DNA of 63,960 nt, from assembly GCF_009649845.1 (NCBI RefSeq), contig NZ_WJIE01000027.1, positions 1-63,960 of the forward strand, in the 5' to 3' direction. The position numbers were made by a program, and so were the translations under genes. Positions 27,809 through 60,323 of this stretch are shown here, one piece after another. A model generated the notes under the pieces. It was given only the letters and a program-made list of their open reading frames with translations, ran no database searches and had not been told where the DNA came from. The DNA comes from Polyangium spumosum (GTDB lineage: Bacteria; Myxococcota_A; Polyangia; Polyangiales; Polyangiaceae). How positions within the stretch are numbered: the stretch's first letter is position 1; every line of letters starts with the position of its first letter.

Positions 27809-28098
27809 GTCATCCGCCTTTGGGTGTGGATGTTCGAGAGCGTTCGGGGTAGATCGGTCATGGGCAAACGGCTCCGAGTCCTTGGGGTTGTCGGCCTTCC
27901 GCCCGGAGAGGGCCTAATCTCTCCGGGCGGTTCTTGTTTGTCCCCGCGTGTGACGAGGACGAACCGGCCAGACTGGATGGGATCACCGTCCGATCGTCAA
28001 GAGTCTTGTTACCGACCCTCAAAAGTCTTGTCTCCGACCCCCAAGAACGGCAGGATGCCCCTCGGAGCGGTTCGAGATGGCCGGGAGAGAACTCGGTC
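27809..28098. promoter_or_regulatory. Divergent control region with 22-bp tandem repeat
   Basis: This region separates the sigma gene (minus) and the integrase gene (plus). It holds two adjacent 22-bp copies at 27997-28018 and 28019-28040 (pattern TCAAxAGTCTTGTxxCCGACCC, 19/22 matches) and a third partial start (CCAAGA). They are likely operators for one or both genes. No repressor gene was recognised nearby. Confidence 0.5.
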
Positions 28099-29199
28099 AT
28101 GACGATTCGCAAGGCAAACCGACGCGGGGAAACCCGCCTGATCGTTGACATTCACTACCGGCGCACAGACGGCTCTCAGGGCCGCTATCGCAAGGACGCT
28201 CATGTCCAGACGATGGCGGGCGCGAGGGCCGAAGAAAGACGTCTCCTCGCCCTCATCGCGACGTACGGGGAGCCGTTCGAGCCCCGTGTCGAGGTCGTCG
28301 TGAAAGAGGCCCCGGCCGTCACGTTCAAGGAGGCCGTGGGCCTGTTCCGCAACGGCAAGGCGGTCACGAGGCTCAAGCCCAGCACGCGGAAGGGCTACGA
28401 GGAGATCCTGGAGACGCGCCTCCTCCCACGGTTCGGCGAGACGCCCATCGACAAGCTGACGTGCTCGGACGTCGAAGGGCTCGACGCCGTGCTCGTAGAC
28501 GAGGGGTGCTCACCCTCGCGGAGGCGGAACGTGCTCATCGTCATCCGCTCGGTCCTACGGGCCGCTGTGGAGGCCAAGAAGCTCTCCGTCATGCCTGACC
28601 TTCCCCCGCTCCCCAAGACGGGCAAGAAGGTTCTCCGCTGCCTCACGGCGGAACAAGTCGAGGCCATCCTCGGCAAGGCCAAGGGCGGGGGTCGCGTGGC
28701 CCTTGCCCTGGCAGCCTACGCGGGGCTCAGGGCCGGCGAGGTTCGCGCCCTCCGATGGGAGGACGTCGACCTTGCTGGCGGCTTCCTCGTCGTCCGCTTC
28801 TCGCACTCGAAGGGTGAAATCTCGACACCGAAGTCGGGACACCAGAGAGAGGTCCCGCTGGCCGCAAGGCTGGCGGAGCTGCTGCGAGAGGTCAGAGGCG
28901 AGGGCCTGGGGCTCGTGACCGTCTCTTCCCGCAAGGAGGCGTGGGGCGAGTGGGGCCTCACGCAGCTCTTCAAGAGAGCCGCCAAGAAGGTCGGCATCGT
29001 GGGCTTCCGCTTCCACGACCTCCGGCACTTCTTCGTGACCGAGCTGTTCAGGCGAGGCGGGTCGGCTCCGGCCGTCCAAGCCCTCGCGGGACACGAGCAC
29101 TTGTCAACGACCTCACGCTACGCCCACGTCGCTCGGGCCGACCTTCGGGACACCGTGGCTCTTCTCGGCCACGGTAACAGTTCGGTAACAAGCTCTTGA
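28099..29199 (+). CDS. int: Prophage tyrosine integrase
   Basis: A 366-residue tyrosine recombinase. The catalytic residues are visible: Arg in AGLRAGEVRALRWEDV, Lys region STPKSGHQREVPL, HxxR in FHDLRHFFVTEL, and the final His/Tyr in GHEHLSTTSRYAHV. The SAM-like core-binding domain lies at about residues 75-160. ATG 28099 fits better than upstream starts, which lack similarity. Its 3' end lies about 50 bp from the tRNA-Lys fragment, so that is its likely attachment core. Confidence 0.95.
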   Translation: MTIRKANRRGETRLIVDIHYRRTDGSQGRYRKDAHVQTMAGARAEERRLLALIATYGEPFEPRVEVVVKEAPAVTFKEAVGLFRNGKAVTRLKPSTRKGYEEILETRLLPRFGETPIDKLTCSDVEGLDAVLVDEGCSPSRRRNVLIVIRSVLRAAVEAKKLSVMPDLPPLPKTGKKVLRCLTAEQVEAILGKAKGGGRVALALAAYAGLRAGEVRALRWEDVDLAGGFLVVRFSHSKGEISTPKSGHQREVPLAARLAELLREVRGEGLGLVTVSSRKEAWGEWGLTQLFKRAAKKVGIVGFRFHDLRHFFVTELFRRGGSAPAVQALAGHEHLSTTSRYAHVARADLRDTVALLGHGNSSVTSS

Positions 29200-29301: not shown

Positions 29302-30459
29302 CTAGCCGGAACTGCTGACCTTTTTGGTCCCCACCCCCGGCTGTTCCAGTATTTCTCCACGGACCGGCGAGGGAGCCGGCCCGTCTAGCAGCTCGATGGC
29401 GCCCCGCTTGGCGCTCGGCGACAGGTGCATGTAGCCCATCGTCGTCGAGACATCGCGGTGGCCGGCGAGCTCCTTGATCGCCATCACGGTCGCCCCGCGC
29501 ATGGCGAGGTGCGAGCAGAACGTGTGGCGGAGGATGTGCGGCCCCTCGAGCACGGCGAGGCCAGCTCGCCGCGTTGACTGCCGCATCCAGCGGGCGATCG
29601 TCTTCCCCGTGATCGGCTTGCCGTCGTCCTCGCAGAGCACGCGCTCGCTCCGAAGATGGCGGTACGCCTTGAGGGTTGCGAGGAGCCGCTTCGTGAGACC
29701 TACGGTGCGCCCGCGCCCGCCCTTCGGGGTGGACTCGATGCCCTTCCAGTCCGCGCGCCGGATGTGGAGCTCTTCGCGGCCGAAGTCCACGTCGTTCCAG
29801 CGAAGCGAGATCATCTCGCCCCGACGAAGCCCGGCGTCCGCGCCGAGAAGCACCAGGAGGTGCGCTCCCCAGCCCACCAACTTCGCGCCCTCGACCAGCC
29901 GGTCGAGATCATCGTAGTCGAGGAACGACTTCTCGGGCTTGGGCGCCTTGAGCAGCTCGATCCGGCACGGCATCGCGGGGATGACCTCCCACGACACCGC
30001 GACGCGGAGCAGCTTCCCCAGGACGGACAGGATGTTGTTCACCGTCTTGGCCGAGCGGTGACCCAGCCGCGCCTTGAGCCGCTGGACATCCTCCGTCTTG
30101 ATCTGGTCGAGCTTCTTCGAGCCGAAGTCGGGCTCGAGGTACAGCCGCAGGATCCTCTTCTTCGCGTCGATCCCGCTCGGCTTCTGCCGGTTCGCCTCCG
30201 CGTAGCTCTCGATGAACCGCGGGGCGAACTCCGTGAGCGTGGGCACCTCCTTCTTCTTGGGTTCTTCTGCGGGGCGTGAGAGGGCCTCGAGCAGGAGCTC
30301 ACGCTCCCTCCCCTCACCCCAGCGCTGGGCCTGCGACTTCGTCGACACGGGTGCTCGGCGGCGCTCGCGCACCTCCTCCCCGTTCGGCAGATTGACGCAG
30401 ATATCCACTTCCCAGCCTTCTCGTTGCGACCGCTTGTACGGGCGAACTTTGACCGTCAT
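29302..30459 (-). CDS. int: Tyrosine integrase of second element
   Basis: A 385-residue tyrosine recombinase distinct from the prophage one. The motifs are AGLRRGEMISLRWNDV (Arg), TPKGGRGRTVGL (Lys), HILRHTFCSHLAM (HxxR) and GHRDVSTTMGYMHL (His/Tyr). The N-terminal arm-binding region is basic (MTVKVRPYKRSQREGW), and the core-binding domain runs over about 65-165. The gene ends 6 bp from the tRNA CCA, as is usual for tRNA-integrated islands. Its start overlaps the AlpA/Xis-like gene by 4 nt. Confidence 0.95.
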   Translation of the reverse strand: MTVKVRPYKRSQREGWEVDICVNLPNGEEVRERRRAPVSTKSQAQRWGEGRERELLLEALSRPAEEPKKKEVPTLTEFAPRFIESYAEANRQKPSGIDAKKRILRLYLEPDFGSKKLDQIKTEDVQRLKARLGHRSAKTVNNILSVLGKLLRVAVSWEVIPAMPCRIELLKAPKPEKSFLDYDDLDRLVEGAKLVGWGAHLLVLLGADAGLRRGEMISLRWNDVDFGREELHIRRADWKGIESTPKGGRGRTVGLTKRLLATLKAYRHLRSERVLCEDDGKPITGKTIARWMRQSTRRAGLAVLEGPHILRHTFCSHLAMRGATVMAIKELAGHRDVSTTMGYMHLSPSAKRGAIELLDGPAPSPVRGEILEQPGVGTKKVSSSG

Positions 30460-46890: not shown

Positions 46891-47889
46891 ATGCGATCCA
46901 GGGTCGCGATGTCCTCCGTGCGTCCGCCTCCCGCGCCGTTCGAGCCCTCGCCTCCGGCCTCGCGAAGGCGGCTCCGATCGGGGCCGGACGCGTTCAGCGT
47001 TCTCTCGCGAGACGGTGCCGCCGCGGTCCTGCTTTTCGCCCGTGCCAAACTCGAAGCTGAGCGTCGGCGTGCACCTGGGCTCGTGAACGCATCCCTTCGC
47101 GCCTTCGCCTCGGGCATGGAGTCAGCGGCTCGCAGCGTGACCGAAGGGGTACATGACGACGGCGTGTTCATTGCACCGCTCTTCCGCCTGCCCCGCGAGC
47201 GTGACGGGGTCCCAGCCTGCCCGACGCTGTCGGCGTTCAAGGCTCGGCTGCTCCAAGCGTACAACCGCGGGCTCCTCGAACTCGCCACGTGCCAGCGCGC
47301 CGAGGACGTGAACCCCTTGGTGGTCGCCGCATCTGCGGTTCGTTCCCGACGAACCACGTTTCATCTCGTGCAGCGATGGTCGCGTCGGACCATGTTCGCC
47401 GCGCTCGACGACGTCGTCGGGGCGCTCTCTCCCAAGGCATACGCCGCCGCAAAAGACTTCGCGCGCAAGGTCCACGAGGATGAAAAGCGCCGCGAAGGGC
47501 GCCCCCGCTTGCTCACGCTGCCGCTCGACGCTTTCGCCGCCCGCGTGCAGGCAGTCGTCAATGAAAGCTCGCACGACGCGCTCATCGTGGAGCTGTTCCG
47601 GGAGCTCGATGACCGCGGTGAGGTGACGGGGCTCGGCCTCTCCGCGTTCAAGGCTCGGCTTCGCGGTGCGCATCGCACGGGCCTGCTCACGCTGCACGCC
47701 TGGCAGGTGAAGGATGGTGTGGAGAACCCGGCCATGCAGGCGTCCGTGGTTGGCCACGAGGGGATGACGCTGCATCTCGTATGCCGCACGGCGGTCCCGT
47801 TGCCCATCCCGTGGGGTCGCCCGGCGCCGCTCTTGGTTCCCGTACCGCGCTGGATCGAAGCATCGCAGGGGCGAATGATGAATGAGTGA
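46891..47889 (+). CDS. Protein with two tandem winged-helix-like units
   Basis: A 332-residue protein. After a Pro/Arg-rich N-terminus it contains two similar ~100-residue units. The first is …IAPLFRLPRERDGVPACPTLSAFKARLLQAYNRGLLELATCQ and the second …IVELFRELDDRGEVTGLGLSAFKARLRGAHRTGLLTLHAWQ. This repeated 'LSAFKARL..A...GLL.L' pattern also resembles the end of the 190-aa protein. ATG 46909 is an alternative start. It overlaps the next gene by 8 nt. No family is recognised; a DNA- or protein-binding adaptor is possible. Confidence 0.6.
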   Translation: MRSRVAMSSVRPPPAPFEPSPPASRRRLRSGPDAFSVLSRDGAAAVLLFARAKLEAERRRAPGLVNASLRAFASGMESAARSVTEGVHDDGVFIAPLFRLPRERDGVPACPTLSAFKARLLQAYNRGLLELATCQRAEDVNPLVVAASAVRSRRTTFHLVQRWSRRTMFAALDDVVGALSPKAYAAAKDFARKVHEDEKRREGRPRLLTLPLDAFAARVQAVVNESSHDALIVELFRELDDRGEVTGLGLSAFKARLRGAHRTGLLTLHAWQVKDGVENPAMQASVVGHEGMTLHLVCRTAVPLPIPWGRPAPLLVPVPRWIEASQGRMMNE

Positions 47890-49024
47890 GTATCAGTATT
47901 ATGAATTTCAGGCGATCGACAGATCTCTCACCGAAAAGGAGATGGCCGAGCTCCGTTCGTACTCGACGCGTGCCCGCATCACGCCAACGAGCTTCGTCAA
48001 CCATTACGAGTGGGGGAACTTCAAGGGCGACGAAGACGCGTGGATGTTCCGCTACTTCGACGCGTTTCTGTATCTCACGAACTGGGGTACGCACGTGTTC
48101 AAAGTGCGCCTGTCCTCGAAGTTCCTCGACCTCGCCGATGTGCGTCCGTATTGCTCGCGAAACAGCCTGACGGCGCGCAAGAACAAAGACCAGGTCGTCC
48201 TGACCTTCACCTCGCAGGATGACGAGGAAGAAGATTGGGACACTGGCGAGGGCATACTGCCGTCACTCATCGCGATTCGTGCGGAGCTCGCCCGCGACGA
48301 TCGTAGGGCGCTGTACCTCGGCTGGTTGCTCGCCGTGCAAGCCGACGAGTTCGACGATGAGGAGCCGGAGCCGCCCGTGCCGCCAGGGATGGGGCAGTTC
48401 AGCGCTTCGCTCGAGGCGTTGGTCGAGTTCCTGCGTATCGACCCGGATCTGCTTCGTGCCGCCGCGGAGACGAGCCCGCAGATGTCGACCCCATCGCCCG
48501 GCCGAAACGAGCTGATGGCTTGGCTCGCCACGCTCCCGCTGGCCGCGAAGGACACGTGGCTCGCCCGCTTGTTCGCCGAGGACACGCTGTCGGTGTCGGC
48601 GGAGTTGCATCGTCGGTTCGTGCAGGACCACGATCCGGCGAAGGCGAGTCTGGCGGCGCCGCAACGACGAACCATCGGCGAGATTCGCCGTATCGCCGAA
48701 AGGCACGCCGTGGAGCGCAGGCAAAACGCCGAACGAGAAGCCGTTGCCGATGCCGACCGACGTCAGCGACAAGCGGCGCGCGAACGGGCGAAGCGTCTGG
48801 ACGCGCTGGTGGGCAAGGAGAAGCAGCTCTGGCTGGATGTCGAGACGCTCGTCACTGCCAAGCAGTCCAAGAACTACGTTGCAGCGGTGGAGGTTCTGGT
48901 TGACCTCCGCGATCTCGCCGCAAGATCGGGAGCGGGGGACTTCGACACGTTGCTGCAGTCTTTTCGGAGCCGGCATGCGCGCAAGGCAACGCTCATGGAT
49001 CGGATCTCGAAGGCCGGCCTGTAG
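47882..49024 (+). CDS. Conserved hypothetical protein (YQYYEFQAIDR type)
   Basis: A 380-residue protein starting MSEYQYYEFQAIDRSLTEKEM, with the sequence STRARITPTSFVNHYEWGNFKGDEDAWMFRYFDAFLYLTNWGTHVFKVRLSSKFLDL. From memory this is a conserved family found in many bacteria, often close to SWIM zinc-finger genes, but of unknown function. The middle (RALYLGWLLAVQADEFDDEEPEPPVPPGMGQFSASLEALVEFLRIDPDLL) is conserved too. The C-terminal third is an Arg/Glu/Ala coiled coil. It is the last gene of the operon that starts at 45720. Confidence 0.7.
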   Translation: MSEYQYYEFQAIDRSLTEKEMAELRSYSTRARITPTSFVNHYEWGNFKGDEDAWMFRYFDAFLYLTNWGTHVFKVRLSSKFLDLADVRPYCSRNSLTARKNKDQVVLTFTSQDDEEEDWDTGEGILPSLIAIRAELARDDRRALYLGWLLAVQADEFDDEEPEPPVPPGMGQFSASLEALVEFLRIDPDLLRAAAETSPQMSTPSPGRNELMAWLATLPLAAKDTWLARLFAEDTLSVSAELHRRFVQDHDPAKASLAAPQRRTIGEIRRIAERHAVERRQNAEREAVADADRRQRQAARERAKRLDALVGKEKQLWLDVETLVTAKQSKNYVAAVEVLVDLRDLAARSGAGDFDTLLQSFRSRHARKATLMDRISKAGL

Positions 49025-49029
49025 AGCGT

Positions 49030-49421
49030 GGTCCTTCGGCTCCCTGTCCTTGCGCGACGACTTTTCTTCGGCTCCCTGCTCTCGCGCGACGAGTTTTCCT
49101 CGCCTCCCTGCCCTCGCGCGACGAGTTTTCCTCGCCTCCCTGCTCTCGCGCGACGAGTTTTCCTCGCCTCCCTGCCCTCGCGCGACGAGTTTTCCTCGCC
49201 TCCCTGCCTCGCGCGACGACTTTTCCTCGCCTCCCTGCCCTCGCGCGACGAGTTTTCCTCGCCTCCCTGCCCCGCGCGACGACTTTTCCTCGCCTCCCTG
49301 CCTCGCGCGACGAGTTTTCCTCGCCTCCCTGCCCTCGCGTGACGAGTTTTCCTCGCCTCCCTGCCCTCGCGCGACGACTTTTCTTCGGCTCCCTCCCTCG
49401 CGCGACGGCTTTTCTTCGGCG
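49030..49421. repeat. 12 tandem copies of a 31-32-bp repeat
   Basis: Twelve head-to-tail units of 31 or 32 bp, each of pattern CCTCCCTGCC(C)TCGCGCGAC, then GAG/GAC, then TTTTCCTCG. The edge copies carry CTTCGG in place of CCTCG at the boundary. There are no unique spacers, so it is not CRISPR. It starts 6 bp after the stop of the 380-aa gene. Unit length is not a multiple of three, and open frames through it look spurious. It may act as a transcription-end or protein-binding array. Confidence 0.8.
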
Positions 49422-49501
49422 CCCGGTCTCACGTACTACGGGGCCCAAGGCGCGATCCACGCGGCCTGCTGGACACGCTCAGGACCGGCAGGGGGCTAAA
49501 A

Positions 49502-49530
49502 GCGGACGGTGCAGCCGTCGAGCTGCACCG
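49502..49530 (-). terminator. Terminator for the DGQHR gene
   Basis: A perfect 9-bp stem (49507-49515 with 49522-49530), 6-nt loop. On the minus strand it is followed by TCCGCTTTTAG. It lies between two convergent genes, so it may work in both directions. Confidence 0.65.
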
Positions 49531-49546
49531 CCCCTGTCTTCTGCGA

Positions 49547-50767
49547 TCAGGCCGCCGTTGCCCCGGGGACGGCCCGCAGAGCCTCGTCCCCCGGTCTGTC
49601 GTCCTTGCCGACCTGCGCCGGCTCGTACCGCCGCTCGTCGATGGCGAGCTCGAGGCCGAGGTGATGCTTGATCAGGTTCGCCGTGAGGATGACGCTCGCT
49701 GCGTTCTTCAAGACCCTGCTGTTCACAACCGCGCGCCCCTCCCACCGCCGATGGGCCCGCGACCAGTCGAGCGTCCCGAGCTTCGTCAGCACGCTCTTCC
49801 AGTCCTCGCGCCGCTCCCGCAGCAGGGCGTTGCCGACGCGACCGAGGGCCTCGAGCACGACCGCATGCGCGTGCACGCACCGATCTCGCAGCGCAGACGC
49901 GCGGATCTTGCCGAGGCCGACCTCGTGCCAGTCCGGCATGACGCGCGTCAGCTCGGTCCAGAACTCGACGGCAATCTGCCTCGCGGTCTCGAAGCTCCCG
50001 CTGAAGCCCGCAAGCAGCGCCCTCGTGGCCGCGTGGATGCTCGCAAGCGCGAAGAGCTTGTTCGACCCGCCCGACACCGAAGTCTTCTCCCCATCGGTGA
50101 GCTGGTGAAAAAGGAAGACGTCACGCACGACGGCGCGCGTGAGTTTCGCGAGCTCGTCGCGATGGTCGTACAAGAGCCCGAGCGAGTTGTTCGGCCGCAC
50201 CGCGAACCGGTTCAGGTCCGCGAACCTCTGCTGCGCCTTCTCGAGGCCCGCGTCGACGAACAACGTCACGCAGATGCTCTCGTCTCCGAGCGATCCCCGC
50301 CTCTTCCTCACGTACTCCTGCGAGAGCGCCATTGCGACGGCCGCCCGCCGATGCTGCCCATCGAGGACCGCAACGGTCATGTCCCGCGGGATGTAGAGTG
50401 TGCCCATGTGGCTCTTCTCGTGACCTGGCTCGAATCGAGGCAGGCCATCGACGGCGCCGACCAGGGCTGGCAGCGTATAGCTCGTCGGATTGCTGGTGAT
50501 GTAGTCGGCGATCTTCGGCACGCGCGTCCTGCTCAAGACCCGCTGCGCCCGAAGCTCGGGCGGCAGCTTCGCATCGACGGGGGCGAACGGCCTGGAGATA
50601 TCCCGGAGCCGCACCATGATCGAGTAATACTCGCCACCGGCCTGCACGCCCCGGATCGCCGGGAACGCCCATTCCGACGCAGTGTCGGTCGCCATCGGCG
50701 CGGCCGGATCGCCGACCGCATTCTTCTTGGCCCTGATATTCTGTATCCGTCCTGCGACCCCCATCAT
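49547..50767 (-). CDS. DGQHR-domain protein (DndB/DpdB-like), IS-fused start
   Basis: A 406-residue protein with the DGQHR core TVAVLDGQHRRAAVAMALSQEY, and the DndB-like segments FAVRPNNSLGLLYDHRDELAKLTRAVV and …RVPKIADYITSNP. Such proteins regulate or take part in DNA phosphorothioate (Dnd) or 7-deazaguanine (Dpd) modification; no Dnd or Dpd enzyme is in this window. The first eight or nine residues (MMGVAGRI) come from the IS66 left end; residues from NIRAKKNAV onward are original. The original ATG is at 53627 (MTKAK|NIRAKK). The IS thus supplies new in-frame ATGs at 50767 and 50764. Confidence 0.75.
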   Translation of the reverse strand: MMGVAGRIQNIRAKKNAVGDPAAPMATDTASEWAFPAIRGVQAGGEYYSIMVRLRDISRPFAPVDAKLPPELRAQRVLSRTRVPKIADYITSNPTSYTLPALVGAVDGLPRFEPGHEKSHMGTLYIPRDMTVAVLDGQHRRAAVAMALSQEYVRKRRGSLGDESICVTLFVDAGLEKAQQRFADLNRFAVRPNNSLGLLYDHRDELAKLTRAVVRDVFLFHQLTDGEKTSVSGGSNKLFALASIHAATRALLAGFSGSFETARQIAVEFWTELTRVMPDWHEVGLGKIRASALRDRCVHAHAVVLEALGRVGNALLRERREDWKSVLTKLGTLDWSRAHRRWEGRAVVNSRVLKNAASVILTANLIKHHLGLELAIDERRYEPAQVGKDDRPGDEALRAVPGATAA

Positions 50768-50818
50768 TCCACATCTGCGTGCATTCGTGCATCTCTCGGG
50801 CCTCGAAGGAGGTTCGTC

Positions 50819-51178
50819 ATGGCTACACGGACGACGAGGACCGAGCGCCGGTGGCGGCGCATCGTGGAGGATTGGCGACAGAGTGGCCTGTCTGCGCGGG
50901 CGTTCGCCAAGGGCAGGGGCGTCAGTGCTGGGATGATCTACGCGTGGAGCAGCCGGCTGGGAAAGCAGGACGCGTCCCTGCCGACCACCGCCTCGCCGAC
51001 GACCGCGCCGAAGTTCCTTCCGGTCGCGATCATCGAGGATACGCCCGCAGTTTCGGCGGAGCGCCCGTCCGTGCTCGAGGTCGTCTTGCCGCGCGGCGAA
51101 GTCATTCGCGTCTCGCCGGGAGCGGACCTCGCCCAGCTCGGCCGCGTCGTCGCGGCCCTGCGCGGAGGTGCAGCGTGA
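50819..51178 (+). CDS. tnpA: IS66 TnpA (HTH accessory protein)
   Basis: A 119-residue protein with the IS66 TnpA pattern RRWRRIVEDWRQSGLSARAFAKGRGVSAGMIYAWSSRLGK, an HTH that binds IS ends, and the C-terminal VLEVVLPRGEVIRVSPGADLAQLGRVVAALR. A strong GAAGGAGG ribosome site precedes the ATG. It overlaps tnpB by 4 nt (GTGA). Confidence 0.9.
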   Translation: MATRTTRTERRWRRIVEDWRQSGLSARAFAKGRGVSAGMIYAWSSRLGKQDASLPTTASPTTAPKFLPVAIIEDTPAVSAERPSVLEVVLPRGEVIRVSPGADLAQLGRVVAALRGGAA

Positions 51179-51534
51179 TTCCGGCACGAATGGCGATCTA
51201 CGTCTCGACCGAGCGGCTCGACTTGCGTCGTTCGTTCGATGGGCTCGCGGGGGCCGTGCGCGAGGTGCTGCGGGAGGATCCGCTCTCTGGTGCGCTGTTC
51301 ATGTTCTTCAACAAGACAGCGGATCGGGTGAAGATCCTCTGGTGGGATCGCACGGGGTTTTGCCTGCTTTACAAGCGGCTCGAGCGCGGGACGTTCCGCG
51401 TGCCCGAGGGGCTCGAGCCGGGCGCGACGTGCATCCCGATCGAGGCCGCCGAGATGGCCAGGCTCCTCGAAGGAATCCAGCTCCCGCCGGCGAAGCAGCG
51501 CATCCGCGCGCTCGATGCGGGTACGGTCAGGTAA
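51175..51534 (+). CDS. tnpB: IS66 TnpB (Orf2 family protein)
   Basis: A 119-residue IS66 Orf2 protein starting at GTG 51175, with the family motif IYVSTERLDLRRSFDGLAGAVREVL…DPLSGALFMFFNKTADRVKILWWDRTGFCLLYKRLERGTF. TnpB is needed with TnpC for transposition. The GTGA overlap with tnpA implies coupled translation. Confidence 0.95.
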   Translation: MIPARMAIYVSTERLDLRRSFDGLAGAVREVLREDPLSGALFMFFNKTADRVKILWWDRTGFCLLYKRLERGTFRVPEGLEPGATCIPIEAAEMARLLEGIQLPPAKQRIRALDAGTVR

Positions 51535-51581
51535 AACTTTCCACTTTACAAGACGCCACGGGACGTATATCAGCACGTCCC

Positions 51582-53229
51582 GTGACAAACCCTGAGCTCG
51601 AGGCCAAGGTCGTCGCTCTGGAGAGCCGCCTCGCGGGCACCTCCCGCGAGCGGGACAAACTTCGCCACGAGCGCGACGAATACCGCAAGCTCTACGAGCT
51701 CGTTAGCATCGAGCTCGACCGCCTTCGGCGCCACATCTTCGGTCGCAAGGCCGAGCAAGTCGATCCGGCGCAGACGCAGCTCGCGTTGAAGGCCGTCGTC
51801 GAGGCGCTCGGCGGGCTCGAGCAGCTCTCCGAGCAGACGTCGAATGAGACGCCGAATGCAGAGACGCCTCCCGAGCAGCCGTCCGGAGAGCGGCTTCCCG
51901 ACGGCAAAAAGCCCAAGCAAAAGGCGCGCAAGGTCACGCCCCATGGGCGGCAAATCCTGCCCGAGCATCTGCCCGTCGAAGAAATCGTGCTCCTTCCGCC
52001 CGAGGTCCAGGGTGAAGAGGCTGCCTCCTTCGTACGGATCGGCGAAGAGGTGAGCGAGACGCTCGAATGGCGGTCCGCGAGCTTCGTGCGAGTCCGGGTC
52101 ATTCGGCCGAAGTTCGCGAGGAAGGGTAAGCCGGAGGAGGGCGTGCGCATCGTGCCCGCGCCCGAGGCGCCGATTCCGCGCTGCATGGCGGGGCCCGGGC
52201 TGCTCGCGCACGTGATCGTGAGCAAGTACGGAAATTCGTTGCCGCTGCACAGGCAGGAGAGGATCTACGAGCGAGAAGGCGTGTCGCTCGCGCGCTCGAC
52301 CCTGTGCAACTGGGTGGGGGCCTCCACGAGCCTGCTCAGGTACATCGTCGACGCGATGGCCGTGGACGCGAAAAACTCGCATTGCATTGCCATGGACGCG
52401 ACCGGTGTGCTCGTGCAGGCGAAGGAGAAGTGCCGCAGAGGCTATTTCTGGGTGCTCGTCGCGGACCGAGACCACGTGCTGTTCCGCTTCACGCCGCGTC
52501 ACACCCAGGACGGGCCGAGAGACTTTCTGCGCGGTTACAAGGGCTACGTCCTCGCCGACGCGCACAATGTCTACGAGCTGCTCTATCGCACCGAGGAAGT
52601 GACCGAGGTCGGATGCTGGGCCCACTGCCGCCGCGGCTTCTTCAAGGCGCTCTCGTCGGACAAGGAGCGGGCCCTCGTCGCGCTCGGGTTCATCGGCAAG
52701 CTGTACGCAATCGACGCCGACACCAAGGAGCTTTCGCCGGCTCGCCGGACGGAGGAGCGCCGAAGGCTCGCGACGCCCGTGATCGAGGCTCTGCATCTGG
52801 CTCGACGTGGAGGAGCTCACGGCATTGCCCAAGAGCCCCATCGGCCAGGCCATCGGCTACGCCCGCAATCAGTGGGTGCCCCTCACGCGATTCCTCGACG
52901 ACGGCCGGCTGCGCCTGGACAACAACCAATCGGAGCTCGAACTCCGCCGGGAGGCTGTCGGCCGAAAGAATTGGCTTTTCGTCGGCAGTGACGAGGGCGC
53001 CGAATGGAACGCCATCGCCGTCTCGCTCATCGCCTCCTGCGAGCTCCACGGCATCGAGCCCTGGGCTTACCTGCGAGACGTATTGATCCTCCTGCCCGAT
53101 TGGCCCCGCGACCGCGTCCTCGAGCTGTCGCCCAAGTACTGGAAGCAAACCCTCGAGCAGACTGACGCTCGTGAGCGGCTCGATCGGAGCCTCTGGAGCC
53201 GCGTCCAGCGTCCGCCGGCCTCGACCTGA
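51582..53229 (+). pseudogene. tnpC: IS66 TnpC transposase, frameshifted
   Basis: This starts at GTG 51582 with the IS66 N-terminal coiled coil (NPELEAKVVALESRLAGTSRERD) and zinc-finger region, and holds the catalytic domain (HCIAMDATGVLVQ, …VLADAHNVYELLYR, GCWAHCRRGFFKAL). At about 52795 the frame breaks: the part from EELTALPKSPIGQAIGYARNQW to …DNNQSELELRREAVGRKNWLF continues in another frame to 53229. The final catalytic Glu region (DNNQSE) lies after the break, so the transposase is likely inactive. One extra or two missing bases would restore it. Confidence 0.85.
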
Positions 53230-53606
53230 CCGCGTACGCGAGCCATCCGAGGTGGTCTTCGGAGCCGCGCCATCCTCGGCGCGGGTTCGGCGGACACGTA
53301 CATTCCGTGCGCCCTTCGATGGCTCACTCGTCGTCGGCGCCATCTCCCCGCTTAGATTGGACGGTCCGGTCAAACCGCGACGCCGCGAAGAGCGTTCTCC
53401 GCCCCCGGGCCGAACGGCGGACGCATCGGCGCCCTTCCCATCCGCGCTCCGACCGCGCGCAGAACCACGCTTTCTCACGGGCTTCGGGCGAGCTGAGTCC
53501 CCCTGGGGTTCATCCACGACGAACTCGTCATGCTGCTGCCGCATCGAGGGCGAAGACTACGCGGCTGCACCGAGGTGCGCCATGATGCGAGTGGCCGAAC
53601 GGATAC

Positions 53607-53627
53607 GATATTCTTCGCCTTGGTCAT
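53607..53627 (-). pseudogene. Original 5' end of the DGQHR gene
   Basis: The original start reads ATGACCAAGGCGAAG (MTKAK) at 53627 downwards, then AATATC up to the target duplication. It is cut off from its gene by the IS. Upstream, the DUF6884-like gene ends 11 bp away, so the DGQHR gene was once the next gene of that operon. Confidence 0.85.
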
Positions 53628-53638
53628 TCAGAACCTCG

Positions 53639-54112
53639 TCACGCTCGTTTTGGTTTCGAACCTTCCGGCGTATGCGCCTTCAGCCACGCCACCCGTGCCC
53701 CGCATCCCCGAATCCCACGCAACGGCTGCTCCGGCCTCGGAAGGTTATGCCAATGCGCTCCATGCACGAGCGCATCGGCATACACCTTCCCGGCCAGGAT
53801 CACGAGCTGCGGAGGCACGCTGAACGACGGCAACACTTCACCGACCGTCCGCGCGCCCCAATCTTCGCGCTCGCTCTTGCGGAGTTTCCGGAGGTTTCGG
53901 TCGTACGGCCGAAGCACGGTCTTCGGAGCGACCGCGCCGTAGAAGGCGGAGACGATGATCACAGCGCCACACGTCTTCTCGGCATATTCGTAGGCCGCTC
54001 GAAACAGCGCCGACGTGTAGAACTCCTTGGCCAGCGCAGGCCTCTTGCTCTTCAACGCTGAGCACCCCACGAGTGCGACCCGTGGGGCGCCCGGCTGTTT
54101 CTCCGTGAACAT
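53639..54112 (-). CDS. DUF6884-like protein
   Basis: A 157-residue protein (MFTEKQPGAPRVALVGCSALKSKRPALAKEFYTSALFRAAYEYAEKTCGAVIIVSAFYGAVAPKTVLRPYDRNL). The 'VaCs..K...pa.A.elYtS.lF..a..yae......ilSA.yGlv.Pd.v..pYd' pattern fits DUF6884, of unknown biochemistry, often on phage and plasmid DNA. It was directly upstream of the DGQHR gene before IS insertion. A link to DNA base modification is speculative. Confidence 0.65.
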   Translation of the reverse strand: MFTEKQPGAPRVALVGCSALKSKRPALAKEFYTSALFRAAYEYAEKTCGAVIIVSAFYGAVAPKTVLRPYDRNLRKLRKSEREDWGARTVGEVLPSFSVPPQLVILAGKVYADALVHGAHWHNLPRPEQPLRGIRGCGARVAWLKAHTPEGSKPKRA

Positions 54113-54128
54113 CCGTGCGACCTCGCTC

Positions 54129-55124
54129 CTACTCGGCGGCGACGCGCGTATCCTTCGCCGCCTCGACTGCGGCCCGTATTGCCGCGCCAATGGGCCCCTT
54201 GAGCGCCTCCCTGGCGCGCTCCCTTCCCTGCCCAAGCGATTCGCCGTTGAACGAGATGTATGCCCCGCTCTGCTTGAGCACGCCGAGCGAGAGACCGACG
54301 TCGATGAGATCACCGGCCGCGTCGATTCCGAGCCCCCAGCGAATGTCGAACTCCGCCTCCCGGAACGGAGGCGCGCATTTGTTCTTCACGACCTTCACGC
54401 GCGTCTTCGCGCCGACCACCTGGTCCCCGAGCTTCAGGGGCCCCACGCGGCGGACGTCCAGGCGCACGCTCGCGTAGAACTTGAGCGCATTGCCGCCCGT
54501 GGTCGTCTCGGGACTGCCGAAGACGACGCCGATCTTGTGCCGGAGTTGGTTGATGAAGATAAGCAGCGTCTCGGCCCGGTACGCGATGGCCGTGAGCTTG
54601 CGCAGGGCTTGGCTCATCAGCCGCGCCTGGAGGCCCATGTGCGCGTCACCCATGTCGCCCTCGATCTCGGCCTTCGGTGTCAAAGCCGCGACCGAGTCGA
54701 TGACGATGACGTCGACGGCGCCGGAGCGCGTGAGCGTCTCGACGATCTCGAGGGCCTGCTCGCCATTGTCCGGCTGCGAGACGAGCAGGCGGTTGACGTC
54801 GACGCCGATGTTGCGTGCGTAGTTCGGGTCGAACGCGTGCTCGGCGTCGATGAACGCGGCGATGCCCTTCGCCTTCTGCGCCTCGTAGAGCGCGTGCAGG
54901 GTGAGCGTGGTCTTGCCCGACGACTCGGGCCCGTAGATCTCCACGATCCTGCCGCGCGGATATCCTCCGATCCCGAGGGCGGCATCGAGCGCGAGCGAGC
55001 CCGTGGGCAAGACGCGCACGCCGCGATCCGGATTGTCGTCCCCGAGGCTCATGATCGCCCCCTTGCCGTACTGTTTCTCGATGGCCTGCAGGGCGCCGCG
55101 GAGAGCGCCGTTGTTCTGCTGCAT
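54129..55124 (-). CDS. recA: RecA recombinase (element-borne copy)
   Basis: A 331-residue RecA. Walker [21 protein letters not shown], Walker [14 protein letters not shown], LexA/ssDNA loop L2 region [35 protein letters not shown], and the C-terminal domain are all present. It is slightly shorter than the E. coli protein (352 aa) and lies among plasmid-like genes, so it is probably an accessory copy. It is followed 16 bp later by the DUF6884-like gene and preceded by a hairpin. Confidence 0.9.
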
Positions 55125-55147
55125 GGTCGTTGGTCCACAAAAGAAGA

Positions 55148-55171
55148 GCGCACCTCCCCGAGAAGGTGCGC
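55148..55171 (-). terminator. Hairpin before recA
   Basis: A perfect 8-bp stem GCGCACCT (55148-55155) with AGGTGCGC (55164-55171). On the minus strand it is followed by TCTTCTTTTG. It separates recA from upstream genes. Confidence 0.5.
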
Positions 55172-55258
55172 CTGTCGAAGCTCCCAGGAGCCGCCATTCG
55201 CGGCGCATCTGGGCTCGGGTGCTTATTCGTGCGATGTCCGGAGGCAGCGCCGTGGTTG

Positions 55259-55582
55259 TTATTCCTGCTTTCGCTCGCGGCTCGCGTGCGTGGTCAGCCG
55301 CTCGAGGAGCGCGAGGGCCTCCGGAATGCGATGATCGCGACGCAGGTCGTCCAGGAGGTCGTTCACGAGGTCGAGGAGCTGGGGAGCCGCCGCGATGAGC
55401 TCGGCATCCGCCTCGATGACCTCCGCGACGAACAGTCCGTTCTGATCACGGATGATGGCCCTGCCTTCCGAGCACGAGGCGATGTGCCAGCGATCCTCCG
55501 AGGGGATGGTGGGCCTCGCCTTCATGCCCGGTTCGGTCGGAGGGCCATCGTCGACTTCCTCGGGCTCTTTGGTGCCGGTCAT
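55259..55582 (-). CDS. Small phage/plasmid-type protein
   Basis: A 107-residue acidic protein ([19 protein letters not shown]…) with the pattern [23 protein letters not shown], common in small mobile-element proteins ('ANArLIAAAPdLLeal'). Its ATG overlaps the stop of the ComM-like gene. Function unknown. Confidence 0.6.
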
Positions 55583-57120
55583 CAGCCACGCCCGAAGACA
55601 GGAGCGAGGAGAACGGCCTCGGCTACGTGCGGCGCGCGGACGACCTCGCTCCCGTCGAGGTCAGCGATCGTTCGGGCCACGCGGAGCACCTTGGTCCGGA
55701 GGCTGGCCGACAGCCCGAGACGCTCGACGGCCTGCTCCAGGGTCCGCTTGCCCTGCGCATCAGGCACAGCGATACGCCCGAGCTCGCGGTCGTTCAACGT
55801 GGTGTTGAGCGAGGAGGCGACCTTCTGCCGCGCCCCGCGCGCATGCTGGATCGTTCGTGCTGCAACGACCCGGTTCCGCACCGTCTCGCTGTTCTCGCCC
55901 TTCGCCTTGCCCCCGAGCTGCGCGACGTCGACAGGCGGCACCACGATCTGCATGTCGACTCGCTCGAAAAGCGGCCCGTGCACTCGCTCCCGATGACGCC
56001 GGATCTGCTCGACGGAACATGTGCACCGCCGTTTCGCGTCCCCGTAGAATCCGCAAGGGCACGCGTGCGTTGCCAGAACCAGGAGAGGACGCGCAGGGAA
56101 AACCGTGCGGCTCTGCCCTCGGATGATGACCGCTTCTCCGTGAGCGAGCGTTGTCTCCAGCAGAGCGAGCGAACTCCGACGGAACTCCGGCAATTCGTCG
56201 AGGAACAAGACGCCGCCGTGGGCGAGGGACACCTCCCCGGGACGCACGGGCTCTCCTCCTCCGACAAGTCCTGCCGGAGCCACCGAATGATGCGGTGCCC
56301 GGAACGGCCGGTTCGTAGCGAGCCCCTGCTCCGAATTGAGCAATCCGGCGACGGAGTGGATGCTCGTGACTTCGAGCGCCTCGTCCGCGGACATCGGGGG
56401 CAGGATCGTGGGGATGCGGCGCGAGGCCATCGTGATCCCAGCACCGGGCGGGCCGACGAGGAGAATCGAATGCTGGCCCGCCGCCGCGATCTCGATCGCT
56501 CGCCGCGTGGAGGCCATCCCGCGCATGTCCGACAGATCGAGCGCCGCAGACTGCTTCGGTCGGAAGGGCAAGCTCGCGCGCTCGAGTTCGCAGGCTCCTC
56601 GCAGGTAGTCCTGCACGGCATCCAACTTCCCCGCCACACGCACGTCGAGCTCCGATGCGCTCGCAGCCTCCGCGAGGTTGGCACGGGGCACGATCGCATG
56701 CTGGATCCCCTTGCTCGCCACACCCCGCAGCGCCGGCAGCACCCCACGAACGGGCCGCACTCCCCCCGAGAGGGACAGCTCGCCGAGCACGACGGCGCCC
56801 GGCAGCGTCTTCTTCTCAAAGGCAAGAATCACTGCTGTCGCAATGGCCAGGTCGAAGAACCCATCATTCCGAAGATCTGCGGGGGAGATCTTGACCGTGA
56901 TGTTGTAGCCGTCGAGCCGCACGCCGACTTGCGCGAGAGCGGAGCGGACGCGTACCTTCGTCTCGCGCAGGCTCACTTCCGCGAGACCGACGAGCTGAAA
57001 CATGCTCGCGCCCGTCTCGATCGTGACGACGATGCTCACGAGCGACGCGACGAGACCCGTGAGCGAGATGGAAAGCACCTCGCTCCGGAGGCACTTCTCC
57101 GATTGGGGATGCTTCCCCAT
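55582..57120 (-). CDS. ComM/YifB-like AAA protein lacking Walker A Lys
   Basis: A 512-residue member of the YifB/ComM Mg-chelatase-like family. Features: N-terminal domain (GASMFQLVGLAEVSLRETKVRVRSAL…), Walker B GGVLFLDELPEF, PCGFYGDAKRRCTCS and …IRRHRERVHGPLFERVDMQI. ComM normally drives branch migration during natural transformation. Here the Walker A reads GPPGAGITMASRR, with Ile in place of the invariant Lys (codon ATC). A good AAGGGAG site precedes ATG 57120. ATPase activity is therefore doubtful. Confidence 0.9.
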   Translation of the reverse strand: MGKHPQSEKCLRSEVLSISLTGLVASLVSIVVTIETGASMFQLVGLAEVSLRETKVRVRSALAQVGVRLDGYNITVKISPADLRNDGFFDLAIATAVILAFEKKTLPGAVVLGELSLSGGVRPVRGVLPALRGVASKGIQHAIVPRANLAEAASASELDVRVAGKLDAVQDYLRGACELERASLPFRPKQSAALDLSDMRGMASTRRAIEIAAAGQHSILLVGPPGAGITMASRRIPTILPPMSADEALEVTSIHSVAGLLNSEQGLATNRPFRAPHHSVAPAGLVGGGEPVRPGEVSLAHGGVLFLDELPEFRRSSLALLETTLAHGEAVIIRGQSRTVFPARPLLVLATHACPCGFYGDAKRRCTCSVEQIRRHRERVHGPLFERVDMQIVVPPVDVAQLGGKAKGENSETVRNRVVAARTIQHARGARQKVASSLNTTLNDRELGRIAVPDAQGKRTLEQAVERLGLSASLRTKVLRVARTIADLDGSEVVRAPHVAEAVLLAPVFGRG

Positions 57121-57161
57121 ATCGACTCCCTTCGGATGATTGATTGTGCAAAGGAAGAAGC

Positions 57162-57189
57162 GGGCCCGGAGGCACATGCCCCCGGGCCC
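57162..57189 (-). terminator. Hairpin before ComM-like gene
   Basis: Stem GGGCCCGG (57162-57169) with CCGGGCCC (57182-57189). On the minus strand it is followed by GCTTCTTCC. It isolates the small upstream gene. Confidence 0.5.
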
Positions 57190-57196
57190 ATTTCGA

Positions 57197-57535
57197 TCAG
57201 AAGACGCCGGACTCCGGACCCGTCCCCGGGTTCACGGGCTCGGCGCCCTCGGGCGGCTCCTGCCCGCCGAGCTTGCCCTTCTCGATGGCGCTCCGCAGCG
57301 CGACGGCCACGTTCGGCATGATGAGCTCGACCTCCTCGGCGAAAAATTCCGTTTCCGCCCGCGTGAGGCGCACGCCCCGCCACTCCTTCCGCCCGCGCCG
57401 CTTGTCCGCCGGCAGCTCGTCCTCGTGGATGTAGACGTGCCCGTCGCTGGCGAGCGCGAACGACGCCATGCACTCTTCCACGCGGTCCTGCTCCTCGGTC
57501 TCCGCGTTCTTCGTGGGCGACTGCTTGGACGACAT
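57197..57535 (-). CDS. Small acidic/charged protein, unknown
   Basis: A 112-residue protein (MSSKQSPTKNAETEEQDRVEECM…) with the sequence DGHVYIHEDELPADKRRGRKEWRGVRLTRAETEFFAEEVELIMPNVAVALRS. It is followed by a strong hairpin. No family is recognised. Confidence 0.5.
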   Translation of the reverse strand: MSSKQSPTKNAETEEQDRVEECMASFALASDGHVYIHEDELPADKRRGRKEWRGVRLTRAETEFFAEEVELIMPNVAVALRSAIEKGKLGGQEPPEGAEPVNPGTGPESGVF

Positions 57536-57554
57536 GTGTCTCCCTGAAAAAGCA

Positions 57555-57587
57555 AATGCGGCGCACGGGAGAACCGCACGCCGCATT
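57555..57587 (-). terminator. Rho-independent terminator after DUF6573-like gene
   Basis: A perfect 9-bp stem (AATGCGGCG, 57555-57563 with 57579-57587). On the minus strand it is followed by TGCTTTTTC. It ends the transcript that starts further right. Confidence 0.65.
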
Positions 57588-57606
57588 CTTGTTGTTGGTT
57601 TGTCGC

Positions 57607-58008
57607 TCAATCCTCTTCGGGCAAGAGGATCGTGATGACCGCCTCGCCATCGTCGCCGGGCCCGATGATGGCCTTCAGGTCGACGAGGGACGGTTCGATC
57701 GCGTCGGTGACGACATACAACTTGTACCGGATCTCAGCTTCATCCGGCCGTTGCAGGGCGGCGCAGCGGAACATCCACAGGATGTCCCAGAGCCTGCCCG
57801 TCGTATCGTTCCCCGCCTCCTCCGCGGCCGGTGACAGCTCGACGTACTTCTCCCAGACGGAGCGCGTCAGCGCCACCGGCGCCTTGATCCCGGCCTGCTT
57901 CGCGAGCACGGTGACGTCGACGAGCGTGCCGTCTTCGAGTGCCTGCGCGCGATTGTAGGCCGCAATCAGGATAAACTCTACACCGACATCATCATCTTCG
58001 TCGCTCAC
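57607..58008 (-). CDS. DUF6573-like protein
   Basis: A 133-residue protein starting at GTG 58008 (overlap of 4 nt with the VWA gene). It contains ILIAAYNRAQALEDGTLVDVTVLAKQAGIKAPVALTRSVWEKYVEL and DILWMFRCAA, matching the DUF6573 pattern ('iysytradAleDGvLvDvs..A.eaGfk.PvavTraVw..yv'). The family is typical of plasmids and phages; biochemistry unknown. Confidence 0.75.
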   Translation of the reverse strand: MSDEDDDVGVEFILIAAYNRAQALEDGTLVDVTVLAKQAGIKAPVALTRSVWEKYVELSPAAEEAGNDTTGRLWDILWMFRCAALQRPDEAEIRYKLYVVTDAIEPSLVDLKAIIGPGDDGEAVITILLPEED

Positions 58009-59174
58009 GTTGCCCCCGCGAGCAACGTGATACTCGAGCCCTCGGTCATCGCCTTGTCGTTGAGCTCGGTGTATTGCGCGGCCTTCTTCCGGAGCGGTGA
58101 GTCCTCCGGGATGGAGCACTCGATCGCCACCGTCCAGAGCCGCGCGCCGATGCTCGCCGCCGCGTCGACCGACTTCTTCTGCTCCTCCTCGTTCCGGTCG
58201 ATGCCGTCCGTGACGAGGATGATGTCGGCGCCGTGCTGGCCCTTCTGCGCGAGCGCCTTCACCTGATCCACCGCAACCCCGAGGGCCAGGCCGATCGCCG
58301 TTCCACCGCTGAGGAAGTGCAGGATCATCTTGACGACCCCCGCGCTGTCGTTGGGCTTCACGATTTGAATCACGGTGGACGTCGCGTAATGGACCACCGC
58401 CACGGGCCGATTCTCCTCCGAGGCGATGCGGGCGAGCGCCACCGCAGCGGCCTTCGCCCACTCGTTCCGGACTCCGGACATGCTGCCGGATTCATCGAGC
58501 GCCAGCACGAGCGGGCCCTTCGACTTCTTCGTCGTTCCCCGGACCGCATACTGCGCAGCCCGGCGAGAGGCGATTCGTTCGAGAGCCACGATCTCGATCT
58601 GCGGGTCGGTCAGAAGCACCGTCTCTGCCGGCAGAAGCCGGGCGACGTCATTGCCCTGCTCGACCGAGTACACCTCGCCCGAGACCCCGTGGACCTTGCT
58701 CGCGTGGGCGCCGCGGAGCGAAGCGAACATGCGACCTGCCAGCCGAGCAATCCGCTCGACCCGATCCATGTCGTCTCCCGCAGCATCTACTTGCCGGACC
58801 TGCGCCCAGGCCGACGAAAGATCCCAGCCGAACCCGTCCGACAGGTGCTTGACCTGCTTCGCCTTCTTATCGAACGTCGCCCACTCCTCGCGGGCGGCGC
58901 TTCGTATCTCGAAGGCCGAGGCACCTTCCGGGACATGCTTCCCCGCCTTCCACAAGAGCCCGAACGCGTAGGCCGCGCCGACCTCGTCGAGGGCGAGAAA
59001 GGCCATGTACTCGGCGGGAACCGTATCCCGCACGGCCTCGGCAAAAGACCGCGTCGGCGGATCCCGCCCGAGCCCCACGATCGCATTCCACAGGTCGCCG
59101 GCCTTCTCCGCGTCCTCGAAGGAAGCCTCCTTGACGCAGAGATGCCGGCGCCTTGCCTGCAAGAACGTGCCCAT
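58005..59174 (-). CDS. ViaA-like VWA-domain protein
   Basis: A 389-residue protein. The helical N-terminal half is followed by a C-terminal von Willebrand A domain. The MIDAS motif is ALDESGSMSG (D-x-S-x-S), with further metal-ligand candidates at …SGGTAIG… and ILVTDGIDRNEEE. It is adjacent to a MoxR/RavA-like AAA gene with a 3-bp gap, the same order as RavA-ViaA in enterobacteria. It probably recruits or targets the AAA protein. Confidence 0.75.
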   Translation of the reverse strand: MGTFLQARRRHLCVKEASFEDAEKAGDLWNAIVGLGRDPPTRSFAEAVRDTVPAEYMAFLALDEVGAAYAFGLLWKAGKHVPEGASAFEIRSAAREEWATFDKKAKQVKHLSDGFGWDLSSAWAQVRQVDAAGDDMDRVERIARLAGRMFASLRGAHASKVHGVSGEVYSVEQGNDVARLLPAETVLLTDPQIEIVALERIASRRAAQYAVRGTTKKSKGPLVLALDESGSMSGVRNEWAKAAAVALARIASEENRPVAVVHYATSTVIQIVKPNDSAGVVKMILHFLSGGTAIGLALGVAVDQVKALAQKGQHGADIILVTDGIDRNEEEQKKSVDAAASIGARLWTVAIECSIPEDSPLRKKAAQYTELNDKAMTEGSSITLLAGAT

Positions 59175-59177
59175 GGC

Positions 59178-60323
59178 CTACGGCAGCGCGTAGCGCTTGG
59201 AGAGGTCGGCCGTGAGCGCGTCGTGGGCCTTCTTGAGCTCGTCGAGCTTCGGCTGGATGCGGGCATGGGCGCGGCGCGACACGCCGTTCTTCAGTATGTC
59301 CTGCACGCGCTTGCCCGCCTCCGTGACCTTGTCCGCGAGCTGGGGCAATGCGGACTGATACGCCGCCGGCTCCGTCGGCCGATTCGCGTATCCGCGGAGC
59401 GCCTCGTCCACGATATCGATGGCCTGCGCGACGACGGAGCGATCGACCGTCTGCAGCACGGCGATGACACGCGCCCGATCCTCCGGCTTGTTCCAGAGCC
59501 CGTACTTCAGGACGGAGAGGTGATCGAGCTCGACCGCTGGCGCATCGTCGAGCCACGCCGCCGCCTTGAGGACACGGGTGAGCGCGATCCACCGCCGATC
59601 CGAGAGGACGAGGCCATCCGCCTTCAGCGCGGTACGGAGCCGGAGCAGCTCCTCGACGGCACGCTGGGGCAGCTCGAGGCGTTGCACGTCTTTGCACGCG
59701 GCATCCCACTCCGCGAGAGCGATCTGCGCCGCGGGCTTGTACTCGGGCGGCGCAGCGACGAGCTGCATCCACGTCGCATTTGCCTGCACGTACTCGACCA
59801 CGTCGCGCAGGAGGAATCGGTCGTAGATCGCCGCGAGGATTTCCTCCTCAGGCAGCTCGTTCGACGCGCCGACGAGAAGCCGCAGGGGAATCGGCTGTCC
59901 CTTGTAGAGCCGCTCGTTCATCGCGCTCAAGAACGCATTGAGCACGCTGTCCGAGCCCTTGAAGACCTCGTCGAGAAAGGCGCACTCGACGGCCGCGAGG
60001 CGGCCATCCAGGTTCCTCTCCCAGAGGTCGTTCTTGAGCGCCGAGAGCTTCACCGGCCCGAAGTACTCGTCCTCGGTGCCGAACTTCGTGACGAGCGTCT
60101 GGAACTTCCGCGCATCCGGAAACGACGCGAGGAACCCGAAGAAGAGCGCGCTCTTCGCCGTGCCCGGAGGCCCGACGAGCAGCGCGTGGCTCTGCGCGAG
60201 CGCGGCGAGCAAGATGCACTCGATCGCGTCCTCGCGCTCCCGGAAAGCCGTGTTGAGCCCATCACGCACGGCGCGGAACCGCGCGCGGACGGAGCCCATG
60301 TCGATGGAACCGTTCTTTTTCAT
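59178..60323 (-). CDS. RavA-like MoxR AAA+ ATPase
   Basis: A 381-residue MoxR/RavA-type AAA+ protein. Walker A GPPGTAKSALFFGFL, Walker B CAFLDEVFKGSDSVLNAFLSAMNERLYKGQP (RavA-like 'FLDEi.K....iLn.LL..iNEr'), sensor region …ASNELPEEEILAAIYDRFLLR. The RavA/ViaA pair remodels protein complexes. Here it is likely an element-borne chaperone system. Confidence 0.85.
   Translation of the reverse strand: MKKNGSIDMGSVRARFRAVRDGLNTAFREREDAIECILLAALAQSHALLVGPPGTAKSALFFGFLASFPDARKFQTLVTKFGTEDEYFGPVKLSALKNDLWERNLDGRLAAVECAFLDEVFKGSDSVLNAFLSAMNERLYKGQPIPLRLLVGASNELPEEEILAAIYDRFLLRDVVEYVQANATWMQLVAAPPEYKPAAQIALAEWDAACKDVQRLELPQRAVEELLRLRTALKADGLVLSDRRWIALTRVLKAAAWLDDAPAVELDHLSVLKYGLWNKPEDRARVIAVLQTVDRSVVAQAIDIVDEALRGYANRPTEPAAYQSALPQLADKVTEAGKRVQDILKNGVSRRAHARIQPKLDELKKAHDALTADLSKRYALP

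Follow-up and report, generated by a model that had tools for sequence, protein, structure and literature searches.

The window analysed here, a 64-kb stretch of the genome of the soil bacterium Polyangium spumosum, carries an insertion sequence (IS) of the IS66 family inside a gene for a DndB-like protein of the DGQHR group. This is probably an ordinary IS66 insertion that has silenced a dispensable gene or strongly lowered its expression, the ATG that lies in frame at the tip of the element being no sign of a rescue. IS66 transposition with an 8-bp target duplication placed the 2.86-kb element in codon 5 of the gene that closes a recA-DUF6884-DGQHR series; the ribosome site and start codon were thereby parted from the gene body, and the oppositely directed transposase genes now lie between the gene and those that precede it. 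Since start, ribosome site and operon are thus separated from the gene body, the DGQHR gene is probably expressed poorly or not at all; the ATG at the tip may permit some translation. The window was compared with its own genome (G000; 10.76 Mb, 61 contigs) and with five other Polyangium genomes (G001-G005).

The insertion and its exact ends, as an earlier note on this DNA had described them, are borne out by a perfect target duplication, by terminal inverted repeats and by the three IS66 genes tnpA, tnpB and tnpC, arranged as follows:

50743..53606, plus strand: IS66-family insertion sequence, 2864 bp, defined by the exact flanking duplication and IS66 family matches
50735..50742: left copy of the 8-bp target duplication, GATATTCT, from flank comparison
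53607..53614: right copy of the 8-bp target duplication, GATATTCT, from flank comparison
50743..50769: left terminal inverted repeat, matching the right end at 20/27 positions, with an outward ATGATG on the minus strand
53580..53606: right terminal inverted repeat, with outward ATG at codons 7 and 8
50819..51178, plus strand: tnpA, 119 amino acids, NF047593 above cut-off and NF047595 below it, both NCBIfam IS66 TnpA models
51175..51534, plus strand: tnpB, 119 amino acids, PF05717 (TnpB_IS66) with 113 bits, and NF033819
51582..53229, plus strand: tnpC (DDE transposase), frameshifted near 52.8 kb, PF03050 (DDE_Tnp_IS66) across two frames

The two GATATTCT copies are the only sites of this sequence in the 64-kb window, the other strand holding none. 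IS66 ends usually begin GTA; those of the window element are imperfect terminal inverted repeats, identical at 20 of their first 27 positions. Within the element, the tnpA start shows strong ribosome-site pairing, and PF03050 matches the two halves of tnpC with 183 and 71 bits, the first DDE part running up to about 52.8 kb and the rest lying in the other frame. This frameshift had gone unnoticed in the earlier note, whose observation was otherwise correct in nearly every detail. Because tnpC is open through its C-terminus in both IS copies of G004, the frameshift in the window copy is read as damage or as a sequencing error, and it does not exclude the element from the IS66 family. The window element is the only close copy found in its own genome, where the remaining matches are short. 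In their flanks, one G004 copy and a deletion derivative in G002 also show 8-bp duplications. The latter (L038:1501-2670) is a related IS66 internally deleted to 1.17 kb that retains both ends and its 8-bp duplication, as if it had been mobilised or shortened in place.

When the flanks of the element are joined by script, an uninterrupted gene of 402 amino acids is recovered, starting MTKAKNIRAKKNAV / MTKAKNIRAKKNAVGDPAAPMATDTASEW and cut between the first and second bases of codon 5 (after base 13); position 53627, at which the earlier note had ended its feature, is the A of the original ATG. The empty site is found in two relatives, G001 and G002, where the gene is uninterrupted and encodes the same first eleven residues, MTKAKNIRAKK. 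The original MTKAK start proposed in the earlier note is thus supported, and an allele that never carries MTKAK, named there as the contrary case, is not what the relatives show. The parts of the gene left beyond the right end of the IS, and the genes next upstream, are these:

53615..53627, minus strand: severed DGQHR start, 13 bases from the ATG on (MTKA plus one base), from the joined flanks and the relatives
53633..53637, minus strand: GAGGT, ribosome-binding-site-like, of the original start, 5 nucleotides (nt) upstream of the ATG; the gene body is now 2.9 kb away
53639..54112, minus strand: DUF6884 gene, next upstream, PF21818, same order in relatives, start taken as ATG 54112
54129..55124, minus strand: recA-family gene, first in the recA-DUF6884-DGQHR run, PF00154 and TIGR02012, same order in relatives, start taken as ATG 55124

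Because only 11 nt separate the DUF6884 stop from the original ATG at 53627, and 16 nt the recA stop from the DUF6884 ATG at 54112, we take the DGQHR gene to be the last of a presumably co-transcribed operon; this close packing agrees with the earlier note, which had assigned the gene to an operon. The next conserved frame beyond it, at 47882-49024, is on the opposite strand.

Loss of the gene appears to be tolerated, since five of its ten copies or fragments in Polyangium are broken. The ten are spread over five of the six genomes, G003 giving no match. Intact-looking copies are those of G001, three in G002 and one in G004, and the broken ones comprise the window copy, a second copy on contig 50 of the same genome, a frameshifted copy in G005 and two 5'-truncated copies in G004; all six assemblies except that of G004 are drafts, and some of these breaks could be assembly faults. 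As regards the second copy in the window's own genome (L029:2654-3202), it is interrupted at the arginine codon of the DGQHR motif by a repeat; four other contigs end in the first 127 bases of this repeat (124 in one of them), and the rest of this gene has no match in the same assembly. Positions 1-127 of the window are the same repeat end, so that the contig breaks off at an element present in several copies, possibly a further IS; the 127-base repeat has no match in the five other Polyangium genomes.

The earlier note had gone further and proposed that transcription from or through the left end of the IS, with translation starting at the ATGATG at 50767/50764, could give a functional DndB-like protein that has the tip MMGVAGRIQ and escapes operon control. 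The in-frame ATG and the open frame that it described do exist, no stop being met on the minus strand from 50767 until 49547:

49547..50767, minus strand: chimeric frame MMGVAGRIQ-NIRAKK..., 406 amino acids, with the whole DndB/DGQHR domain, from translation and domain matches

In favor of such a chimera, the whole domain is kept, the first 20 or so residues vary between paralogues, so the altered tip may be harmless, and the window branch shows purifying selection. Nevertheless, its production is rather unlikely when the signals for translation and transcription are considered. For 51 unambiguous starts from 280 kb of this genome and for 752 internal decoy ATGs, we measured the length of the unbroken match to the ribosome-site core at a plausible spacing. 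The severed start has a match of 5 nt (GAGGT) and the chimeric ATGs one of 3 nt, a length that is reached or exceeded by 80% of the starts and 61% of the decoys; matches of at least 4 nt occur at 41% of the starts versus 21% of the decoys, and those of at least 5 nt at 18% versus 6%. The original start in G001 has a 3-nt match too. The match at the chimeric ATG tells little, as it does not separate starts from decoys. Similarly, the pairing energy is -7.8 at the severed start versus -3.9 at the chimeric ATG, a value that 52% of 714 decoys reach or surpass (n=10 reference starts). The same test bears on a further possibility, namely that some transcript reaches the gene and ribosomes restart internally at the ATG at 50695 (MATDTASEW...), producing a protein that keeps the conserved domain whole and holds no IS residue. 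This ATG does precede the domain, given that the Pfam match starts at residue 34 in the 405-residue frame, ten residues past this Met. However, it has no ribosome-site match, the start is not conserved (G001 has Ile instead of Met) and a transcript must still come through or out of the IS, all of which makes internal restart very improbable.

At the transcription level, a consensus scan of 49300-55400 for sigma-70-like promoters found 0 with 0.4 expected, and hexamer pairs in the 150 nt preceding the chimeric ATG score at best 7/12, the commonest background value. An IS promoter, which the earlier note had considered, thus has no match in this test, which is a weak one: the region before tnpA also gives 7/12, at background, and a real promoter could be missed. 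Of 10 sites returned by a terminator scan (3.0 expected), three fall within the IS on the minus strand and might stop read-through; two others fall within the DGQHR gene itself, which makes the scan unspecific, and it is given little weight. Since the tnp genes are directed opposite to the operon, read-through would produce RNA antisense to them.

Several points weigh against the silencing of the gene. The 397 codons from the junction onward are still open, and the lineage of the window shows purifying selection, far from neutral. Taking G002 as outgroup and dropping 13 ambiguous codons, the window branch has 25 silent and 11 amino-acid-changing codons, a departure from the neutral split with a binomial P of 4e-8 (base-change bias ignored), and the branch is not different from that of G001, with 15 and 4 (Fisher P 0.54). 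Selection before the insertion is inseparable here from selection after it; the signal may be older than the insertion, and hence it is no proof of use. To this has to be added that a 3-nt match like that of the chimeric ATG is present at 80% of real starts, so that translation may occur despite a weak site, and that the promoter tests address the sigma-70 consensus only, with the region before tnpA no better than background.

The ATG itself is accounted for by the inverted repeat. An outward ATG stands 7 codons from the tip, in one phase, at all six left IS ends compared (window, G004, G005, two in G001 and one in G002; the two of G001 are near-identical neighbours and therefore not independent), and likewise, in the same phase, at all six right ends (window, two in G004 and one each in G002, G001 and G005). 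A second outward ATG at codon 8 is seen at all six right ends and at the left end of the window. By comparison of these ends, the ATG is a constant part of the IS inverted repeat; as it is present at all 12 ends in one phase, a frame match with the invaded gene is expected in 1 of 3 cases. There is accordingly no support for a new start fitted for use, the ribosome-site match being uninformative and the ATG a feature of the IS end. When seven other IS ends are followed outward, frames in the same phase extend 34-150 codons into the flanks (150 at the right end of the window element). It could be imagined that both tips of this IS66 group act as a portable N-terminus, with an outward start and six stop-free codons in fixed phase, so that about one third of gene insertions, on either side, would yield a short-tagged in-frame protein, and that the DGQHR chimera still works outside its operon; this broader proposal is unlikely. 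Among the matches listed from the open-access literature on IS66 ends and IS-made fusions, no title or abstract opening mentions an IS66 inverted repeat that carries a start codon, and among those listed for Polyangium with insertion sequence and transposase none is on this subject. A structure prediction of the chimera from six sequences gave a mean pLDDT (predicted local distance difference test) of 54, with low values over the first 46 residues and over much of the model too, and nothing is concluded from it.

With respect to the encoded protein, the part of the gene downstream of the IS matches PF14072 with 344 bits (cut-off 29), TIGR03233 (DndB) with 368 bits (cut-off 328) and TIGR03187 (DGQHR) over the full-length domain, and it contains the DGQHR motif, the QR pair and FxxxN, which are named as features in PMC4619093. 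PMC4507180 describes Salmonella DndB as a transcriptional regulator of dndCDE and Cys29 as its conserved regulatory cysteine. A search for dndC (TIGR03183) found it in none of the six Polyangium genomes, the window's included (dndD and dndE not searched), whereas it is present in G117, the one order-level relative with a DndB match that was looked at. Without dndC in these six genomes, the product is regarded as an orphan DndB-like protein, and the equivalog name DndB is not to be taken as its function. All five Polyangium proteins checked have MVRL or MVHL where both of two more distant proteins (one from G117) have MCPL, that is, Val for Cys; we infer that the MCPL cysteine is Cys29, from an alignment that contains no Salmonella sequence. 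A nucleotide-dependent DNA-binding role may be supposed by analogy with the ParB/Srx-type DGQQR proteins described in PMC4619093 and PMC11662687. A profile of the protein found no match among PDB sequences at E 0.1. A phage origin of the gene is unsupported, a relative being encoded in none of 34 candidate stretches of IMG/VR viral contigs.

The DGQHR gene closes a longer run on the minus strand (49547-60323) that comprises a MoxR ATPase (PF20030), a VWA gene, a small gene, a Mg-chelatase family protein (PF01078) that we take to be ComM-like, a second small gene, recA, DUF6884 and DGQHR. The run recurs, with a partial second one on contig 50 of the same genome, one each in G001 and G005 and three each in G002 and G004. 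Two of the G004 runs (L031:6399-9057 and L032:8928-12814) have DUF6884 shortened or missing, the 5' part of DGQHR lost and other DNA in between, which suggests an exchange-prone spot between recA and the 3' end of DGQHR. Elsewhere in the window, a contractile-tail prophage occupies 6376-30459, with baseplate, tail sheath, major head, portal and terminase genes on the minus strand and integrase genes at 27934-29199 (plus strand) and 29302-30459 (minus strand). The idea that the DGQHR run is part of this prophage is weakened, as a tail-sheath gene is found in two of the six Polyangium genomes (the window's and one of the five others) and in G005 lies on a different contig from the run.

Altogether, with the empty site preserved in relatives, the IS insertion is a clear-cut example whose main use lies in annotation, since a gene caller could report a DGQHR protein of 406 amino acids or longer whose N-terminus stems from the IS. 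Were the chimera produced, inverted repeats alone could supply translation starts; as matters stand, the in-frame start in the IS tip is neat but ordinary. The multi-copy module of recA, DUF6884 and an orphan DndB in Polyangium lacking dndC may outweigh the insertion in interest.

Comparison with known systems places the locus as follows. Outward promoters are attributed, in passages of PMC3281130, to the IS5/IS903, IS3/IS407, IS21 and IS256 groups, IS66 not being named among them there. Like such elements, the window IS lies directly upstream of a gene deprived of its own start region, but it shows a start codon only and no visible promoter. The protein resembles the DndB/DGQHR proteins (PF14072, TIGR03233, TIGR03187) in a domain above the curated cut-offs and in its DGQHR, QR and FxxxN motifs, and differs from DndB in the lack of an accompanying dndC in the six Polyangium genomes and in the Val that replaces the Cys of MCPL. 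The same passages of PMC3281130 give lengths of 2829 and 2731 bp and 8-bp duplications for IS66 members. The window element shares with this family the tnpA-tnpB-tnpC order, the TnpB_IS66 and DDE_Tnp_IS66 domains, the 8-bp duplication and a length of about 2.9 kb; it departs from it in its frameshifted tnpC and in the outward ATG in fixed phase at both tips, a trait compared here among Polyangium ends only.

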